This document shows, one piece after another, positions 7,889 to 22,073 of a stretch of DNA of 22,766 bases (positions within the stretch are counted from its first letter, which is position 1; each line of letters starts with the position of its first letter). The notes under the pieces were generated by a model. It searched no databases. It was not told the origin of the DNA and worked only from the letters and a program-made list of their open reading frames with translations. The stretch comes from a virus: IMG/VR virus record IMGVR_UViG_3300022748_000047, positions 1 through 22,766 of that record. One strand, 5' to 3'. A program made the translations under genes and the position numbers.

Positions 7889-7922
7889 TTCTTCATGCGT
7901 GACCTATCGTGATGGTGATCTT

Positions 7923-8504
7923 ATGCACAAGCAGTTCTACGTCTACATTCACAAAAAGCCTGATGGGACGCCTTTCTATGTTGGAAAAGGGCATGGAAAA
8001 CGCGCATACAATCTACATAACCGCAACCCACACCACCAAGCTGTACTAAATAAGTACAAAGGCCAGATAATCATTGAAGTTACAAATTGCGAGACTGAGC
8101 AAGCCGCGTTTGAGCTAGAAAAGATCTACATTAAACAGCTGCGCGATCAAGGCTACAGGTTATGTAATCAAACAGATGGCGGTGAAGGCGTATCTGGATT
8201 CAAGTTTCCAGATGAAATAAAAGAACGCGTAAACGCAATCAATCGCACAAAAATTAGATCAGAAGAATTCAAATCAATGGTGTCAGCGCAATGGAAAGGC
8301 GTAAAGCGCGGAGAACAATCGCCAACACATAAACAGAGAAACGCAGAAGCCAAGAAAGGTAATACGTTTCGCCGTGGCGCAAAACACACGCCAGAATCAA
8401 TCGAGAAAATGAAAATAGCTCAGAGAGCATGGAGAGAGGAAAAAAAAAGAAAACAACTAATTGAAAAGTTAAAGAAATTGGAAGATGCTTTACAAGAAAA
8501 ATAA
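7923..8504 (+). CDS. Free-standing GIY-YIG homing endonuclease
   Basis: A 193-residue protein. The GIY-YIG core begins at once: FYVYIHKK (5-12), then PFYVGKGHGKRA (17-28) with the conserved Arg R27, and AAFELEKIYI with the likely metal-binding Glu E66. The rest is basic and modular, with a NUMOD3-like repeat (AKHTPESIEKMKIAQRAW), a short DNA-binding element common in phage homing enzymes, and a Lys-rich coiled tail. I prefer ATG 7923 because the GIY-YIG domain starts there and a weak GGTG lies upstream. GTG 7899 is the longer option, without a ribosome site. It is not inside the coat intron but upstream of the coat gene. It has its own terminator-isolated promoter and leader RNA. Confidence 0.9.
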   Translation: MHKQFYVYIHKKPDGTPFYVGKGHGKRAYNLHNRNPHHQAVLNKYKGQIIIEVTNCETEQAAFELEKIYIKQLRDQGYRLCNQTDGGEGVSGFKFPDEIKERVNAINRTKIRSEEFKSMVSAQWKGVKRGEQSPTHKQRNAEAKKGNTFRRGAKHTPESIEKMKIAQRAWREEKKRKQLIEKLKKLEDALQEK

Positions 8505-8516
8505 ATATGATATAAG
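8489..8516 (+). promoter_or_regulatory. Sigma70-type promoter for the coat gene
   Basis: TTTACA (8489-8494, five of six matches to TTGACA) and TATAAG (8511-8516) are 16 nt apart, with an added TG at 8508-8509. This is the best two-box promoter in the window. Its -35 box lies in the last codons of the GIY-YIG gene. It would supply coat mRNA downstream of the scaffold terminator. Confidence 0.6.
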
Positions 8517-8535
8517 TGCTTTACCAAAAGCATTC

Positions 8536-8605
8536 TGCCTAGATTCTTTTGCGGCCAATTGAACCATTCGAAGGATCGGCTCCTGTTCAATAACCTGATT
8601 AGGCA
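8536..8605 (+). other. Folded 5' leader of the coat gene
   Basis: Nested stems: TGCCTA (8536-8541)/TAGGCA (8600-8605), ATTGAAC (8558-8564)/GTTCAAT (8585-8591) and AGGA/TCCT (8572-8575/8581-8584). A separate hairpin TGCTTT/AAAGCA lies at 8517-8532. The ribosome site GGAGG (8627-8631), 6 nt before ATG 8638, is left free. The stem may stabilise the coat mRNA or guard it from nucleases. No known family is recognised. Confidence 0.45.
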
Positions 8606-8637
8606 AATCTTTTATCAATTTTTTATGGAGGTTCGCA

Positions 8638-10196
8638 ATGTCGAATCAATTGCTTACCATTAGTATGATCAATTGGTCCGTCTAATCTGTAAAGATTAGA
8701 AAAGTACAGGGTGAATTGCTGGAACTCCCTTAGAGCCTAAATGCCACAACGTAGTCTGCAAAGGCAAGCGTGAAGGACTGAAAAGTTTTAGGATTGGGAA
8801 ATCAGCAGCCAAGCGACTCAGGAATGAGTTGAAGGTTCAACGACTAGAACATACCGGCCAGAACGGTCGATGAAGTTCCAAGAGTGCCCTGCATCCTACT
8901 GGGATGAAGATATAGTCTCATCTAGCTTGAAAGGGCTAGGACTAGGAAATTAAAAAGCTAGTCATAAGATAATGCACTAATGAAGCCCTCCGCGTATTGA
9001 CAAACCAGCTGGTTTTCACTCGCGCAGTATCTCGGCAGTATGACGATAAATTTGCCATCGAAGGGGCAAAAATCGGGACTACTATAAATCTCAGGAAGCC
9101 CCCGCGTTATGTCGGTCGTACCGGCCCTGCGCTCCAGGTTGAATCCTCTGTTGAAACCTATGTACCGCTGACCCTGGGAACCCAGTTCGGCGTAGACATG
9201 GCGTTTACGACTCAGGACCTCACGATGAACATCAGCGACTTCTCTGATCGTTTCATCAAGCCTGCTGTAGCGGCTGTTGCGAATAAGATCGACTATGACG
9301 GTCTTCAGCAGTTCCTTAATGTTTACAACCTTGTTGGTACTCCTGGTCAGTTGACCGGCACTCCGACTCAGGCACAGTCTACGGCGGCTATTCTTGCTGC
9401 TCGTGCACGTCTGAATCAGGAAGCCGCTCCGGTTGACGAAGAGCGTCACTTTGTTGTCGATCCGACTGTGGAAGTTGGCATCGTTTCTGGTCTTACGAAC
9501 CTGTTTAATCCGCAGGGTGTTATCTCTCGCATCTTTGAAAAAGGTGCGCTTGGTGACTCTACTCTCGGCTTCAACTTCGCAATGGACCAGAACGTAGGTA
9601 ACTTCACCTCCGGTACGTTCATTGTCGGCACTGACACTCTGGCAGTTGCTGCACAGGCTGGTGGTTCAGTACAGACGAATGCACAGACTGCATTCTCTCT
9701 GACTGCAACGATCACTTCTGGCAAGACGCTGACTCAGGGCACTGTCTTCACCATTCCTGGTGTATATGCAGTTAACCCGCAGAACCGTCAGTCTACTGGC
9801 GCACTGCGCAACTTCGTTCTTACTGCTGGCGTTACCGGCACTGGTTCTTCACAGACCCTTTCTGTGTTCCCGACTCCGGTATTCTCTGGTCAGTTCCAGA
9901 ACGTTACCAGCAGCACTGGCACGATTCCGAGTGGCAACGCTTCTGTCATCTCTGGTTCTAACGGATCTTCTTACCCGAACGCGATTGCATTCCACAAGGA
10001 TGCGTTTGCATTTGGTACGGCTGATCTTATTCTGCCCCAGGGTGTTGACATGGCCGGTCGCGCATCAGCAGATGGCGTGAGCATCCGTCTTGTTCGTCAG
10101 TACGACATCAACAGCGATCAGCTGCCTTGCCGTCTTGACGTACTGTACGGCTGGTCAACCGTCTATCCTGAACTCGCTACTCGCGTAACTGGTTAA
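8638..10196 (+). CDS. Major capsid (coat) protein, P22 type, split by a group I intron
   Basis: The gene is join(8638..8669, 8975..10196), 417 residues after splicing (P22 coat: 430). Exon 1 follows GGAGG (8627-8631) and the joined N-terminus reads MSNQLLTISMITNEALRVL, the usual start of this coat family. RAVSRQYDDKFAIEGAKIG, the Asn/Pro-rich middle with a likely inserted beta domain (GDxFTIPGVYAVNPQNRQSTG-like, about 270-350) and a C-terminal LVRQYDINSDQLPCRLDVLY fit P22-type HK97-fold coats. Without splicing, translation stops after 15 residues at TAA 8683. Automated calling would start at TTG 8997 and lose 18 residues. Codon use in exon 2 is richer in C and G, as for a highly expressed gene. 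Confidence 0.92.
8670..8974 (+). ncRNA. Group I self-splicing intron (ORF-less, IA-like)
   Basis: Splicing after T8669 and G8974 restores the coat frame. The 5' exon ends in T and the intron ends in G, as required. P1: GATC (8667-8670) pairs with GGTC (8675-8678), placing the splice-site T8669 opposite G8676 in the usual wobble. P2: TCTAATC/GATTAGA (8681-8687/8694-8700). P3: TGAA (8712-8715)/TTCA (8836-8839). P4: TGCTG (8717-8721)/CAGCA (8803-8807). P7: GACTA (8842-8846)/TAGTC (8913-8917) within the hallmark GTTCAACGACTA and AAGATATAGTC strings. P9-like stems follow: CTAGC/GCTAG and GACTAG/CTAGTC. It encodes no protein. The subgroup is inferred from the core strings. Confidence 0.92.
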
Positions 10197-10880: not shown

Positions 10881-12455
10881 ATGGCTAATGTAAAGATTTC
10901 TGCACTTCCTGCGGTAACTACGGTTGTACCAGGATCTGATGTATTACCGCTTGTATCTGGCGGAATTACCACAAAGGCTACGCCAAATCAGATTGTGCAG
11001 GCGGTTCTACCGGCTCCAGGCGCGATTGGTGGAACTACACCAAATGCAGGCGCGTTTACGACTTTAAGCGCCTCTAGCACTGTATCAGGCACTGGATTTA
11101 GTACTTATCTAGCATCTCCTCCGGCGATTGGCGGCACGGTTGCAGCGGCTATTACTGGCACGACAATTACTGCCAATACTGCATTTGCAGGCGCTCTTAA
11201 TGGTACGGTTGGTGCAACAACGCCAAATACAGGTGCATTCACAACTTTAAGTGCATCTTCTACAGTCTCTGGCACTGGCTTTAGCACTTATCTTGCGTCT
11301 CCTCCTGCAATCGGAGGCACAACAGCAGCCGCTGGCAAATTCACCACACTGGAATACACAAGCACTCTCACTGGCGGCACAGGCGTTATCGCTATCGGCA
11401 CGAACCAGATTTATAAAGATACTTCTGGCAACGTAGGGATTGGGACGAGTTCGCCGCTCACCAAAACAAACATAAGCGGCGGAGCTGGAAACGTATTCCA
11501 AACCTTTACTGATACAACGAGTTCCTATCAACACGCCTATGTCGGCAAGGTAGCAAATGCGTTGACATTTGGTTTTTCAAGCAGCAACGTTAGCTTTGTA
11601 GCTCAAGAAGGAATGCGCCTCGACTCCTCCGGCAACCTTGGCTTGGGTGTTACGCCGAGTGCTTGGGGTAGTGCAACACGCGCAATTGAAATTGGAGCTT
11701 CTTCGTCAATCTCTAATGTCGGGACAACAACAGGAATTACTGTTGGCGCAAACGTTTACAACAACTCTGGATGGAAATACAAGCTCAGTTCTGAACTTAG
11801 CACGCTGTATACCCAATACAACGGCACTCATAGCTGGTCAACCGCCCCCTCCGGCACAGCAGGAAACGCAATCTCCTTCACTCAGGCGATGACGCTAACC
11901 GCTAACGGGAATCTTTTGGTTGGCATGACAAGTGACGCAAACAATACAAACATCATTGACAAAGCAACGTCAGGCAACCAAGCCCTTTACGTCAGGAATA
12001 CAGCTACTAGTGGTACTCCGTATGGGCTTTATATTGCGTACCCAAGCCTTACCCCAAACACCTCTGGCGCTTTCTTTATAGCCTGTCAAGACTCAACGGC
12101 GTTTCGGTATTACGTTGCGTCAAACGGAGATGTATATGCGAAATCAGCAAGCAACCAAGTAATATCAGACGTAAGGCTAAAAGAAAATATACGCGACTTG
12201 GATTTTGGATTAGCACAAATTTTGAAACTAAAACCGCGTAGGTTTGATTGGAAACTTGAAAGCAACAAAACCGAAACCGACGTATCTGGTTTTATAGCTC
12301 AAGAAGTGGAAGATATAATCCCTGAAATGATAATTGATTGGGGGGATGATGGTTATAAAGGCCTTAACAATTCTCCTTTATTTCCAATCCTTGTCAAAGC
12401 CATCCAAGAACTTTCTCAAGAAATCGAAACCCTCAAAGCAAAGGTAAACGCATGA
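10881..12455 (+). CDS. Tail fibre or spike protein with C-terminal S74 chaperone domain
   Basis: A 524-residue fibre protein. The N-terminus MANVKISALPAV is a typical phage fibre start. Ser/Thr/Gly-rich repeats follow (residues 53-86 and 114-147 are near-identical), then YKDTSGNVGIGTSSP and other beta-prism-like segments. The C-terminal 96 residues, from S429-D430 (SDVRLKENI), form a peptidase S74 intramolecular chaperone that trimerises the fibre and cuts itself off before the Ser. The Ser and the Lys four residues later are the expected catalytic pair. A coiled coil ends it. GGTGAG (10870-10875) precedes ATG 10881. It likely binds the host receptor. Confidence 0.9.
   Translation: MANVKISALPAVTTVVPGSDVLPLVSGGITTKATPNQIVQAVLPAPGAIGGTTPNAGAFTTLSASSTVSGTGFSTYLASPPAIGGTVAAAITGTTITANTAFAGALNGTVGATTPNTGAFTTLSASSTVSGTGFSTYLASPPAIGGTTAAAGKFTTLEYTSTLTGGTGVIAIGTNQIYKDTSGNVGIGTSSPLTKTNISGGAGNVFQTFTDTTSSYQHAYVGKVANALTFGFSSSNVSFVAQEGMRLDSSGNLGLGVTPSAWGSATRAIEIGASSSISNVGTTTGITVGANVYNNSGWKYKLSSELSTLYTQYNGTHSWSTAPSGTAGNAISFTQAMTLTANGNLLVGMTSDANNTNIIDKATSGNQALYVRNTATSGTPYGLYIAYPSLTPNTSGAFFIACQDSTAFRYYVASNGDVYAKSASNQVISDVRLKENIRDLDFGLAQILKLKPRRFDWKLESNKTETDVSGFIAQEVEDIIPEMIIDWGDDGYKGLNNSPLFPILVKAIQELSQEIETLKAKVNA
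11037..11138 (+). repeat. Fibre repeat, copy 1 (34 codons)
   Basis: It encodes TPNAGAFTTLSASSTVSG and continues to AIGGT. It is identical to copy 2 at 33 of 34 residues but differs at 21 of 34 codons, 20 of them silent. Confidence 0.9.
11220..11321 (+). repeat. Fibre repeat, copy 2 (34 codons)
   Basis: It begins 183 nt (61 codons) after copy 1 and encodes TPNTGAFTTLSASSTVSG and continues to AIGGT. Twenty-three of 102 bases differ from copy 1, and only one changes an amino acid. Confidence 0.9.
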
Positions 12456-12989: not shown

Positions 12990-15900
12990 ATGTCTAATCT
13001 TGGCCCTCAACAAATAAACACATCTTATCCCGGCTTACTGCAAGTTCCAGGTGGACTTACAACTGTTTTGCAATATGTCAGCGATGGCGCTGGCAACACA
13101 TCTCCTTGGCAACTTAGCACAACATCTATTGGCTTTGGTTCATTGCAACTTTCCGGCTCTATCGACATGGGCGGAAATGCAATCAACAATCTTGCAACGC
13201 CTGTTCTTGGCTCTGACGCGGCCACAAAAGCATATGTGGATTCTGTTGCTGTAGGTCTTCAGCCTAAAGCGGAAGTAAAGGCTGCAAGCACTGGCGATAT
13301 TACTCTTTCCGGCACGCAGATTATTGACGGCATCACTCTGTCATCTGGCGATAGAGTGCTAGTCAAGAATCAAGCAATTCAATCGCAAAATGGCATTTAT
13401 ACAGTCAGTTCTGGTCCTTGGAGTCGCGCATCTGATGCTGACACTTGGAGCGAATTAGTAAGCGCATATCTATTTGTGCAGCTTGGAACGACTCAAGCAG
13501 CTACATCTTGGGTTTGTAATATCCCGCCTGGAGGAACTCTTGGCGTAACGGCTGTTACTTGGCTATTGTTCTCTCAGTCTTCTTCTGTTCTTTCAAATTA
13601 CCTGACATTTGATGCGCTTGGCGATGGCGAAGAAGGCGTTACGGATATTGCGACTGAAGCAAGTGCTAATGTTCTGACTGAAAGCAGTGAATTTCTAACA
13701 ATTCAAACGCCAAGCGCGTTGCTTTTCAATGGATCTGCGCCATTAACGATTTCTTACAACAGTATTGGCGCGGCTGACATAAATGGATATGACGTAACGC
13801 CGGGATCAGTCTGGAATATCAATGTTCTTGGCAATGCTGAAACCGTTACAAATGGCGTTTACACGTCTACAAATTATCTTGATCCGTCATGGCTGACTGG
13901 CCTTGCGTCTTCTAAGCTCATTGGCGCAGTTTCAGTCAACAACGGCGGTACTGGTGTAGCTACTTTATCCGGTGTTCTGTACGGAAATGGCACTAGCGCA
14001 GTCACAACAGCTACTGGATCTCAGATTTCTACAGCAATTGGCTCTACGCCAGTCGCTTATGCAACCAATCTGACAGGAACTCTAAGCATTGCAAATGGCG
14101 GTACGGGCCAAACCAGTGCAAATGATGCTTTAAATGCGTTGCTTCCAGCGCAATCAGGCAATACAAATCGTGTTTTGTACACGGATGGCATTAATGCTTC
14201 TTGGAGTACATCACTTGCTCTGACAATGGGCAATATGGGCGTTGCTGTTACGCCTGCGCCATGGCCTTTTGCTGGCAACATTCAAGCAAGCAATCTGTCA
14301 TTTACAAGCGTAGGGACGCTTGGAGCCAACGTATATTACGACGGCGGATACAAGTACATAGGACCAGGTGTAGCAACTGCGCTTGCGTTGTCTGCTGATG
14401 CTGGTTTTTATTGGTATTCAACGTCTACGCCAGGGACTGCTGGAGCCGCCGTTCCGTTCAATGAGGTAATGAAGCTAGACGCTTCAGCAAAGCTCACGGT
14501 TGCTGGAGATATCAAAGCAGGCGGAAACATTGGCATTACAAGCAATATTAGTTCCTGGGGCACTGGATCGACGCTAGAGATGTCTTCTGGCGCTATTCAT
14601 TCGCCGGATAACGCAACTATTGATTACGCGCAAAACGTATATCTAAACAGCGCTCCGCAATGGATCAGAAAAAATAACGGTCCTGCTTCTATTTATAGGC
14701 AGACATCAGGCGCACATGAGTTTTATGTTACCGGATCAGGATCTGCTGGAAGCGTTGCAACTTTTGGCGCTCCAAGCGTATCTATTAACAACGCTGGAAA
14801 TCTAAATCTTGCAAATGCGCTGTTGCTGAATGGCAGTGCAGGCACTACTGGACAAGTTCCTACATCTACCGGTGGCGGAGCAATGGTTTGGGGTACTGGT
14901 GGGGGTGCGACTGGACCTGTTGGACCTACTGGACCGTCTGGACCTATTGGACCCACTGGAATACAAGGACCGACTGGGCCAAGTGGATTAGGCGCTACAG
15001 GTGCTACAGGTGCTATTGGACCCACTGGTCCTGCTGGAAGCGCTGGAAATCTCCTGTATTTTAATATTGTTGACTACGGCGCATCTTCTGGTGGATCTGC
15101 TACCACAAACACTACAGCTATAAATAATGCGGCATCTGCGGCAAATGCGGCTGGCGGTGGTGTTGTTTACATTCCACGGGGAACTTATCAGATCAATGGA
15201 ACGATCACTGTTTACAACAAAGTGATTTTTCAAGGTCAGGGAGTTGACGTATCAATAGTACAAAGAGCGCCATCTTTTACTAGCGGTGATATGTTTGTCA
15301 CCTATGGTTTTTATAACTCTCCGGGTGGCACTCCTACATATCCTAATTATAATTCTGTAGCGCAAAATGCTGCAGCAGAAAATAATTCAGCCACAAATCC
15401 TTGGTACATTGGTGGATATTCAAGAGCCGGTGTGTATGAATTTGGTTTTTCAAGCCTAACAATTGACGGAAATAGAGGAGCAACTGGCGGAGCTGGCGGT
15501 TGGTGTCTAATCATTTTCGGTTATGGCTATGTCATAAACAATATTGAGATTGTTGGTTGTCCTCAGGGTGGCATGTATGCGCGTTGGTGGATAGGTGGCG
15601 TTGCAGATCCTTCATTGTTCGATTACGGAACACATCTAAATGCGCCACAAGCATTTGTGACAAATGTCAATATATCTGCTCCTACAATAACACCAGAAAT
15701 AAATGGACCGCATGATGTAATTATTTCAAACTTCATGGTTTCATTTACTAGCCCAAATTCAGTGTATACCGGGGCCGCTCTTTCAATCGGGCCCGGAGCT
15801 CAGGGTGCTTGCATTAGCAATATGCACCCATGGTCATTCAACACAACGATTTGCCTTAAAATTAATTGTTCATTCTGCACAATTACTAATCTAGTTTTAG

Positions 15901-16880
15901 ATAATGTGCAAAATGGCGGCACTATGCTTGTTATTACAGGCGACGGAAACAATGTTCAAGGTATAGTTGTAGGTATTGATAATCAAACAAGCACAGTAGT
16001 TCAGCCGCAATCTGGATATGGTGCAAATCGCGTTAGCATGTTTGTTACGGCTGGCGGCTCAGGTAGCTGCACTCTTTTAAATGCTGCAGCAGAATCAAAC
16101 ATTGGTAGCACATATGAGTTCAACCTATACACATATGGAGCAATCAACATTGTTCCTATTGCGGCTGGATATGTTTCACCTCTTGATTCATTTACATACA
16201 ACGTTTTTAAAGAAAACGGTCACACTGGATCAGTTCCATCAAGCTACCAGCATTTATCAGGGGCAATTCAAGCAAGCAACGGTTTTGGCTCATCAGGTCA
16301 AGTGCTTACTTCATCTGGCGGCGGTCAGATGTCTTGGACGACTGTTGGTAGTGGCGGCTGGACACAATCAGGGTCAAACACATATACATTTGGAAATGTA
16401 GGAATTGGTGTAGGGCCAGATAGTGTTGCAAAATTAAATATCTATAATTCTTCTCTTGCAGCAAATACATCAACATTAGCATTCTTTAATAGAACAACTG
16501 ACGGAGATGTAATTACGTTTTTTGAAGGATCAACATACGCTGGTAAAGTTTATTATTCTGGCGGTGTTGTTGGATTTCAGCCAGCGTCTGATTACAGAAT
16601 TAAAGAAAATGTTTCAGGCATTTCTGATGCAATCAATTCTGTAATGTCTTTAAATCCAGTTAAATACAACATGACTGGATATGAAATGATTGTTGATGGC
16701 TTTCTTGCACACGAAGCGCAACAAGTACTTCCATTTGCTGTATCTGGCACAAAAGACGAGGTAGATGAAGATGGCAATCCGGTTTATCAAGGAATTGATT
16801 ACTCTAGATTTGTTCCGTTGCTCACAGCCGCCATCAAAGAACTTGTTGCCAGAGTTAAAACTCTGGAAGACAAAGGATAG
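12990..16880 (+). CDS. Large multidomain tail spike: beta-helix domain and S74 chaperone
   Basis: A 1296-residue receptor-binding or depolymerase-like spike. The N-terminal part (1-200) holds [20 protein letters not shown] and DADTWSEL, a common fibre domain. NGGTG repeats follow. A short collagen-like run (639-686) leads to a pectate-lyase-type beta-helix: [12 protein letters not shown] (about 692) and [20 protein letters not shown], continuing to about 1100. Enzymatic residues cannot be assigned. The last 97 residues, from S1200 (SDYRIKENV), are an S74 chaperone that should self-cleave. No strong ribosome site precedes ATG 12990. It probably degrades or binds a surface polysaccharide. Confidence 0.88.
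14904..15047 (+). repeat. Collagen-like GXY repeat in the spike
   Basis: Sixteen triplets of Gly-X-Y type (many GPT and GAT) encode residues 639-686, with one shortened triplet (GPS-GL-GAT) that breaks the register. It likely forms a flexible trimeric rod between the stem and the beta-helix. Confidence 0.85.
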
Positions 16881-19927: not shown

Positions 19928-20127
19928 TGGCTATTCCACAACCGCCATTTAGGTCTGCAACTGCTGATAAAAACGGCATGTTTAACCCTGTTTGGGTACA
20001 ATGGTTTCAGCAAGTTCAAGAACAACTTAGCTCTAGTAGTAGCCCAGTAATTGATGGCGGTACGCCTTCATCTATTTATGGCGGATCTATCACAGCCATT
20101 AGCGGCGGAACGGTAGGAAACAGATGA
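19927..20127 (+). CDS. Small tail protein before the collagen-like fibre
   Basis: A 66-residue protein with [17 protein letters not shown] near the middle, a pattern typical of short phage proteins that lie just ahead of fibre genes, followed by a Ser/Gly-rich tail. It starts in the stop codon of the gp10-like gene and overlaps the fibre gene by ATGA, so three genes share a translational chain. It may be a fibre anchor or assembly factor, inferred from position. Confidence 0.7.
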
Positions 20128-22073
20128 CAGTTCAAATCCAACTTAGAAGAGGCTCTGCCTCAGAATGGTCAACAGCTAATCCGACTCTTGCATCCGGTGA
20201 AATGGGTGTAGAAACGGATACTGGCCGATTCAAGGTTGGTAATGGTTCTACGCCATGGAATGCTTTGCCATATTCATCTGGCCCTGCTGGCCCTACTGGT
20301 CCACAAGGTGCAACTGGTGCTGCTGGCGATCCTGGCGGACCTACTGGCGTAACTGGTCCTACTGGCGCAACAGGTGTTGGCACAACAGGCGCAACTGGGC
20401 CAATTGGAGCGACCGGAATTCGCGGAGCAACAGGTCCGACTGGTATTGGAACGACCGGAGCAACAGGAGTTATTGGACCTAACGGAATTACTGGAGCCAC
20501 TGGCGTTCAAGGCGCTACAGGACCAGCAGGAACAACTGGCGCACAAGGACCAACCGGCGTACAAGGCGCAACTGGAATACAAGGTGCTACAGGTATTCAA
20601 GGAACGATTGGCGTAACAGGCGCAACAGGTCCGCAAGGATTAGCTGGAGATACTGGCGCTACTGGCATACAAGGACCAACAGGTGCTATTGGGCCACAAG
20701 GCGCATCTGGAGCAACTGGACCAGTAGGTGCAAATGGACCACAGGGCGCAACAGGATTAACTGGCGCAACTGGTATTGCTGGAAATACTGTCCTTAATGG
20801 AACTGTGGCTCCGACTGCTGGAATTGGTGTAAATGGTGATTTTTACATCAATACAACCAATGAAAATATTTATGGCCCTAAAGCCGCTGGCGCTTGGCCG
20901 GTTGGCGTTTCTCTTGTAGGTTCAACTGGCGCTACTGGATTACAAGGATCTACAGGGCCGATTGGCGTTACAGGACCGCAGGGCGCAACTGGCGTTATTG
21001 GCGTAACGGGCGCGACTGGCGTACAAGGAATAACAGGAGCAACAGGCGTTGCTGGCGCTGGTGGTGCTAATGGTTACTGGGGATCTTTTTATGATACTAG
21101 CAACCAGGCAGCAACAAGCACAACTGCTGTTTATCCCGCAAAACTGAATCATACCGATATCAACAGTAATGGCGTAAGCATCGGTAACGATCCTTCAGGC
21201 AATCCGACCAAGATTATTTTTGCTAATGCTGGCGTTTACAACGTTCAATTTTCAGCGCAGTTCGTTAACACAGACACACAGATTCATAACGCGCAAATTT
21301 GGCTACGACTAAACGATACAGGTAGCGCTGGTGACATTGCTGATTCTGCCGGTGAAATTGCGATCACAAACAGTCATGGTGGCATTGATGGTCTGAACGT
21401 TGTTTCTTGGAACTATGTTCTCAAGCTAAATGCCGGTGACTATCTACAATTGATGTGGCGCGTTGATAGCACTCAGGTCAGCATGCAGACGCTTCCTGCG
21501 GGAACCAGTCCGGTTTATCCAGAAACGCCTTCATTGATTTTGACGGCTACTCAGGTTCTTTATACGCAAATCGGACCATCAGGAGCTACTGGCCCTATCG
21601 GACCTACTGGAGCGATTGGTGTTACTGGACCTACTGGTGTAGGCATTACAGGTGCTACTGGTGTACAAGGTCCGACTGGACCACAAGGAGTTACGGGGCC
21701 TACTGGTCCAACTCCAGTTCAAAACATTACGCATTACAACTCGACTTCTGCTACGAACGTACAAGGTGGATTGGCGATTGGCTCAACTGTTACGCAAGCG
21801 GTTGTAGACACTGACGCTAGCGGCTCTACTAATGGCATTACATTGCCGACAGGCGCTAGTGGTATGATTGTGACCGTAACGAACCTTGGGCCACAAAATT
21901 TGAATGTTTATCCTGCATCTACTGGGCGGATCTATCAGGCAACGGCTACAAATTCGCCAGTGCTTTTGATTGCGGGAGATGCTTCTCAATTTGTTTACAT
22001 TAGCTCAAATTCGTTAGGTTCTTGCTGGTTCCAGCAGATTTACGCATTTGACTGTTTGTTAACAGAGACATGA
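20124..22073 (+). CDS. Collagen-like tail fibre with jelly-roll domain
   Basis: A 649-residue fibre. Residues 1-50 ([20 protein letters not shown], then [17 protein letters not shown]) form the attachment head found on many phage fibres. Collagen-like runs cover 53-220, 267-314 and 484-530. A linker with [19 protein letters not shown] follows the first run. Residues 317-480 look like a C1q/TNF-type jelly roll ([25 protein letters not shown]). The end (531-649) is a beta domain with a QFVYISSN strand. The modules suggest a trimeric rod with two adhesive heads for host binding. Thr is very frequent in Gly-X-Thr triplets. Confidence 0.9.
20280..20783 (+). repeat. Collagen-like repeat block 1
   Basis: About 56 Gly-X-Y triplets (residues 53-220). 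Most carry Thr or Gln in the third place ([12 protein letters not shown]). The codons for repeated triplets vary, so long exact DNA repeats are rare. Confidence 0.9.
20922..21065 (+). repeat. Collagen-like repeat block 2
   Basis: Residues 267-314 form about 16 Gly-X-Y triplets between a linker and the jelly-roll domain. Composition matches block 1, with many GAT and GVT triplets. Confidence 0.85.
21573..21713 (+). repeat. Collagen-like repeat block 3
   Basis: Residues 484-530 form about 16 triplets joining the jelly roll to the C-terminal beta domain. One triplet is broken at GVGITG. Codons vary between repeats. Confidence 0.85.

Follow-up and report, generated by a model that had tools for sequence, protein, structure and literature searches.

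The two near-identical stretches in the tail-fibre gene of this phage are very probably old members of a widespread fibre repeat that is constrained at the protein level, and whose silent DNA has drifted to near randomness. Each stretch represents a single unit of a tail-fibre repeat 34 residues long (with a period of 61 when a spacer is included), the core of which is FTTLSASSTVSGTGFSTYLASPPAIGGT. The resulting pattern, nearly fixed protein encoded by divergent DNA, is the ordinary outcome of protein selection and not of DNA kept different on purpose.

The window, that is, the whole stretch of DNA analysed, is a virus record of 22,766 bases from an uncultured phage, with genes for a P22-type coat protein, terminase, portal protein, head-closure and fibre proteins. 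The ORF that contains the repeats (Table 1) scores 51.6 bits against the PF13884 cut-off of 22, and it can be assigned on this sequence evidence to the Peptidase_S74 tail fibres. Comparison of the whole 524-residue ORF with annotated phages matched 620 records, all below 60% identity, and the best 40 of the 620 span residues 167 onward. A sequence search of solved structures with the whole ORF gave nothing better than myelin regulatory factor (E 0.13), over the chaperone domain. The window carries two further ORFs of this general kind: a second fibre-like ORF of 1296 residues (12990-16880), in which a pectate-lyase-like domain and a short collagen-like run accompany a Peptidase_S74 domain of its own, and an ORF of 649 residues (20124-22073) that contains long Gly-X-Y runs of collagen type and has matches among the PHROGs for collagen-like tail fibres. 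We take the ORF at 7899-8504, located 5' of the coat protein gene, to be a putative GIY-YIG-type endonuclease, and the one at 566-1060 is presumably of the HNH type, both judged by the look of their sequence. None of the nine relatives compared matches positions 8026-8963 in DNA at E 1e-10, a pattern such as a mobile insertion would give.

Table 1. Coordinates of the tail-fibre ORF and its parts within the window
Feature	Coordinates	Strand	Remarks
Tail-fibre ORF, 524 aa	10881..12455	+	Two repeat modules between the N-terminal part and the C-terminal chaperone domain; matches tail-fibre PHROGs
Fibre N-terminal part	10881..11033	+	Common to fibres of capsid-fetched relatives
Repeat module copy 1, 35 codons	11034..11138	+	Alignable to syntenic fibres L086, L087, L090 up to 11132
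Spacer, 26 residues	11139..11216	+	Module start to start = 61; kept together with modules in other phages
Repeat module copy 2, 35 codons	11217..11321	+	Codon-by-codon alignment to copy 1
Downstream fibre region	11322..12164	+	In other phages, follows different N-terminal parts
Peptidase_S74 intramolecular chaperone domain, residues 429-483	12165..12329	+	PF13884, E 1.1e-13

The initial annotation described two 34-codon repeats (11037-11138 and 11220-11321) with 33 of 34 residues identical and 21 codons different, 20 of them silently, through changes in 23 of 102 bases. A codon-by-codon comparison gave exactly these counts, with both copies in frame within the ORF. The single replacement is Ala GCA / Thr ACA at 11046/11229, and the 23 base differences fall at 20 third, 2 first and 1 second codon positions, one Ser pair being AGC/TCT. 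The true start of the unit lies one codon further 5', at 11034 and 11217, which raises the identity to 34 of 35 residues with 21 silent codons; the likeness ends at the residue directly after the unit (Val/Thr), though Ala-Ala-Ala comes next. A DNA repeat finder with a minimum length of 30 reported no repeat family in the window, where the copies are 77% identical in DNA. Near-copies that stand as a pair within a phage fibre gene are also the setting of the template and variable repeats of a diversity-generating retroelement. In such pairs the differences lie at adenines of the template and mostly change the residue. The window pair has the opposite character, given the silent nature of all codon changes except one, and its adenines differ at 7 of 23 sites in copy 1 and 8 of 24 in copy 2, so there is next to no chance that it arose in this way.

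The repeat is not confined to this phage. Scanning viral contigs with the repeat region yielded at least 404 confirmed relatives, and the module is present in all 80 loci retained from it as well as in the window. The dataset comprised 318 sequences, namely 317 loci obtained with four queries (including module patterns, the capsid and the downstream region) plus the window. From 414 domain hits, 358 were kept, in 172 ORFs of 168 of the 318 sequences; the remaining 56 were dropped for being gapped relative to the profile, cut by the end of an ORF, affected by non-ACGT letters, or in agreement with the reference at fewer than 22 of 35 residues. Merging near-identical ORFs (single linkage, 93% module DNA identity) left 86 cluster representatives with 189 modules. 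Successive modules of the representatives are spaced by 34 residues in 72 of 103 cases and by 61 in 17, the latter being the spacing of the window pair, and the longer spacing contains a conserved spacer. In two loci (L063 and L197) a pair of ORFs of 306 and 265 residues, each with modules, takes the place of the single repeat-bearing fibre ORF of 525 residues seen in L060.

Across the 189 modules of the 86 clusters the core residues are almost invariant, in a collection whose fetching favoured conserved modules, and Gly18, Gly20, Pro28, Ile31 and Gly32 (0-based) are the same in 189 of 189 modules, all preselected at 22 or more of 35 residues. Most modules come from loci fetched by exact 8-residue patterns within the module, so that the near-invariance is partly a matter of ascertainment and the conservation is inflated. 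A kept module was found in 9 of 80 loci fetched by capsid and in 4 of 80 fetched by the downstream region. Agreement with the reference is 24.8 of 35 residues in capsid-fetched representatives (5 modules; pN 0.25), 29.0 in downstream-fetched ones (2 modules) and 30.9 in module-fetched ones (134 modules).

Searches of family libraries and structures with the module region were largely negative. There was no Pfam match up to E 1 for the module region of the window or of L013; in L045, a DUF4382 match below the cut-off (E 0.0005, residues 455-540) touches the start of one module. The best PHROGs match of the window's module region reached only E 0.034. A sequence search of solved structures with this region found no relative, the best hit being a chitinase structure (E 0.11) that was taken as chance. 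Among annotated phages, one record, Burkholderia phage BcepC6B, has a weak relative of the module region (48% identity). Of 166 pattern stretches located in genome contigs, 14 code for a relative, and Hyphomicrobiales and Paraburkholderia are among the titles of the records concerned. A literature text search with the module peptide found no paper, and among the matches listed for repeats, silent change, fibres and polyubiquitin no title or abstract opening describes the module. The results point to a common fibre repeat that is missing from the family libraries used and that varies in copy number between near-identical phage contigs; the family could help in the study of how fibres are built and exchanged.

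The silent sites of the window pair are near saturation (dS of about 1.8, with dN of about 0.04). By the NG86 method, there are 20 silent differences over 29.2 sites (dS 1.84) and 3 replacement steps over 72.8 sites (dN 0.042). Random synonymous draws from the same gene differ at 23.4 of 34 codons, compared with 21 observed (probability of 21 or fewer, 0.24), and when module codons are excluded from the pool, 13 of 34 silent codons are shared where 10.4 are expected (z 1.0). Each window copy is as close in DNA to modules of other phages (up to 83 of 105 bases) as to its partner copy (81). In the family, pairs of modules that share at most 40% of their silent codons agree at 29.0 of 35 residues within genes (76 pairs) and at 29.3 between genes (15,116 pairs), and 33 or more of 35 residues are identical in 11.8% and 12.3% of them, respectively. 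Since residue identity is equal within and between genes once silent sites are scrambled, the window pair is like many other pairs of the family. At least 33 of 35 residues are identical in 48 within-gene pairs, and 8 of these, which come from 7 genes and include the window pair, are at least as silently diverged as it is. Less in keeping with this, the window pair is the most diverged of the 17 cassettes with a 61-residue spacing, its silent share being 0.38 against 0.52-0.78 in the 16 others. What looks striking within one gene dissolves against the wider family, in which two modules from unrelated phages look alike.

The initial annotation had left two options, an old duplicate under strict purifying selection or silent divergence that is favoured because it blocks recombination, and had proposed to compare silent and replacement change across homologues. 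Among module pairs with scrambled silent codons, residues are conserved to the same degree within and between genes. Silent divergence close to saturation, a dN of about 0.04 and the near-invariant core of the 189 modules all speak for the first option.

The second option has some points in its favour, because the silent codons of the window pair are near-random and the pair is the most silently diverged of the spaced cassettes. Another comes from the fibre ORFs of L008, L009 and L010, near-identical phage contigs that differ by one exact 102-base (34-codon) unit. The extra unit of L008 is identical to the preceding one, and L009 lacks one such unit and is otherwise identical over the 1,050 gene bases compared, with the caveat that short-read assembly can err at such repeats. 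The L008/L009 comparison indicates that identical units exist and vary in number; as the difference in length occurs where adjacent units are identical, a cost of identity is conceivable. Selection for divergence, however, predicts that copies within a gene share fewer silent codons than chance would give, and the reverse was found: the share is 0.52 within genes, compared with 0.33 expected and 0.30 between genes. None of 220 within-gene pairs falls below z -2 (the lowest is -1.96) and 103 lie above z 2; the pairs are not independent, and when z is taken gene by gene it averages +2.03 for the 48 genes, with a negative value in 5. An earlier count on module-fetched loci alone (95% linkage, stricter cut) gave 0.45 of silent codons differing within genes and 0.71 between. 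Nor are neighbours more diverged, the silent share being 0.51 for copies 34 residues apart and 0.48 for those more than 120 residues apart, and the adjacent units of L008 are identical in DNA. Selection for silent divergence is not supported, and it is very improbable that a block to recombination accounts for the pair.

Protein constraint on an old repeat is compatible with two histories of the pair, which stand near even. The copies may have entered the gene by separate routes, the N-terminal part bringing copy 1 and the downstream part copy 2, with the recombination joint within or close to copy 1; we give this just under an even chance. The alternative, somewhat under even in our estimate, is an old in-place duplication of one unit without later exchange. 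The composition of the fibre bears on both. Among the 12 relatives whose capsid is 92-99% identical (L082-L092 and L121), the N-terminal part of the fibre is common to 11, L082 having no fibre match. Identity in these 11 capsid-fetched loci is 57-71% over 63-116 residues, and 37% in L126-L128. Sharing extends over some 63 residues in L083, L084, L085, L089, L091, L092 and L121, over 67 in L088, and over 99 to 116 in L086, L087 and L090; in L088 there is a further match, at 38%, to residues 114-523, and in L121 a weak second one. At the level of sequence, these comparisons establish the fibre as a mosaic of parts from different phages.

Alignment of the window with the DNA of L086, L087 and L090 runs through copy 1 and breaks off at 11132, and these fibres have a single module at the place of copy 1, after which they diverge from the window. 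The 10 capsid-fetched loci with a detected module have one each, and in other phages the alignable cassette DNA sets in at about 11022-11053 and continues through copy 2. The end point and the alignments of the other phages together suggest a junction in or next to copy 1, and hence separate histories. The rank of the window pair as the most silently diverged of the 17 spaced cassettes leans the same way. The three loci are mutually related, however, so their shared end point does not amount to three cases, and many of the 80 capsid-fetched loci are fragments. Silent codons give a divided answer: copy 1 and the L086 module have 13 of 23 in common (7.2 expected) and copy 2 shares 12 of 27 with that of L128 (7.5 expected; copy 1 shares 5), but copy 2 also shares 11 of 23 with L086, above expectation, and the L127 module gives no contrast between the copies (8 and 6 of 27). 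In a quick tree of 64 modules, built on 105 columns and with stars on 4 of its 61 inner branches, copy 1 is grouped with the syntenic modules with a support of 77, which is not significant. This tree is a poor one, since a tree joining both window copies scored 29.9 log units higher (p-AU 0.94); the joined tree was not rejected, as in-place duplication would have it. Separate arrival is also weakened by the lack of copy-by-copy colinearity with the 16 other cassettes (one-sided p 0.91), and viral contigs gave no hit to exact 27-base probes taken from the DNA of each copy. In-place duplication gains from the module-spacer-module cassettes present in 10 further gene clusters, where the two copies are plainly related (silent share 0.52-0.78), and from the unit-length difference between L008 and L009; against it stand the mosaic fibre and the window pair's own want of significant silent kinship (z 1.0). 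That the pair is a duplicate, as the initial annotation has it, thus stands near even, for in a mosaic fibre the copies may have come separately.

Returning to the old, protein-constrained repeat, its history is very probably as follows. Selection on the protein makes the unit near fixed while, as the counts show, silent positions have changed until the common origin is almost unreadable. Units would be gained or lost whole, one at a time, between identical neighbours, as seen in one contig set in which assembly error is possible. New units would then drift silently, and fibre parts are reassorted among phages, as the mosaicism described above shows. Given the periodicity of the units and their tandem position, after the N-terminal part and ahead of the C-terminal chaperone, each may be a structural segment of a trimeric fibre shaft, and the constraint may come from packing or register within it. 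An AlphaFold2 model of the cassette (15 sequences) was poor, with a mean pLDDT of 50.7 and a pTM of 0.21. It is also conceivable, though unlikely, that the module is an exchange joint at the protein level, its residues rather than its DNA being fixed across unrelated environmental phages so that swapped fibre parts fold in register, with the crossover in or next to copy 1. If this were true, every fibre swap would leave a protein-identical, DNA-diverged pair.

The layout agrees with that of the self-chaperoned phage tail fibres (Peptidase_S74), with modules located between an N-terminal part and a C-terminal chaperone; the difference is that the module region itself has no Pfam counterpart within the limits given above. 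For protein repeats in general, Persi, Wolf and Koonin (2016, PMC5120217) stress fast divergence between units of one protein, whereas the residues of the fibre modules barely diverge; they also report that individual repeats are conserved once fixed, and in this the fibre modules are alike. A close parallel is polyubiquitin, in which, according to Sharp and Li (1987) as recounted in PMC10457151, tandem units have a fixed protein sequence and accumulate silent substitutions between units, and are closer within one gene than across lineages. The fibre units differ in that they make up part of a phage fibre, are less strictly identical, have a spacer in some cases and lie in a mosaic gene, and in the window pair the within-gene signal is gone (13 of 34 silent codons shared). 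At the level of the family the likeness to polyubiquitin is retained, with a silent share higher within genes (0.52) than between them (0.30). The fibre repeat is ordinary in kind and in mechanism, and resembles polyubiquitin.
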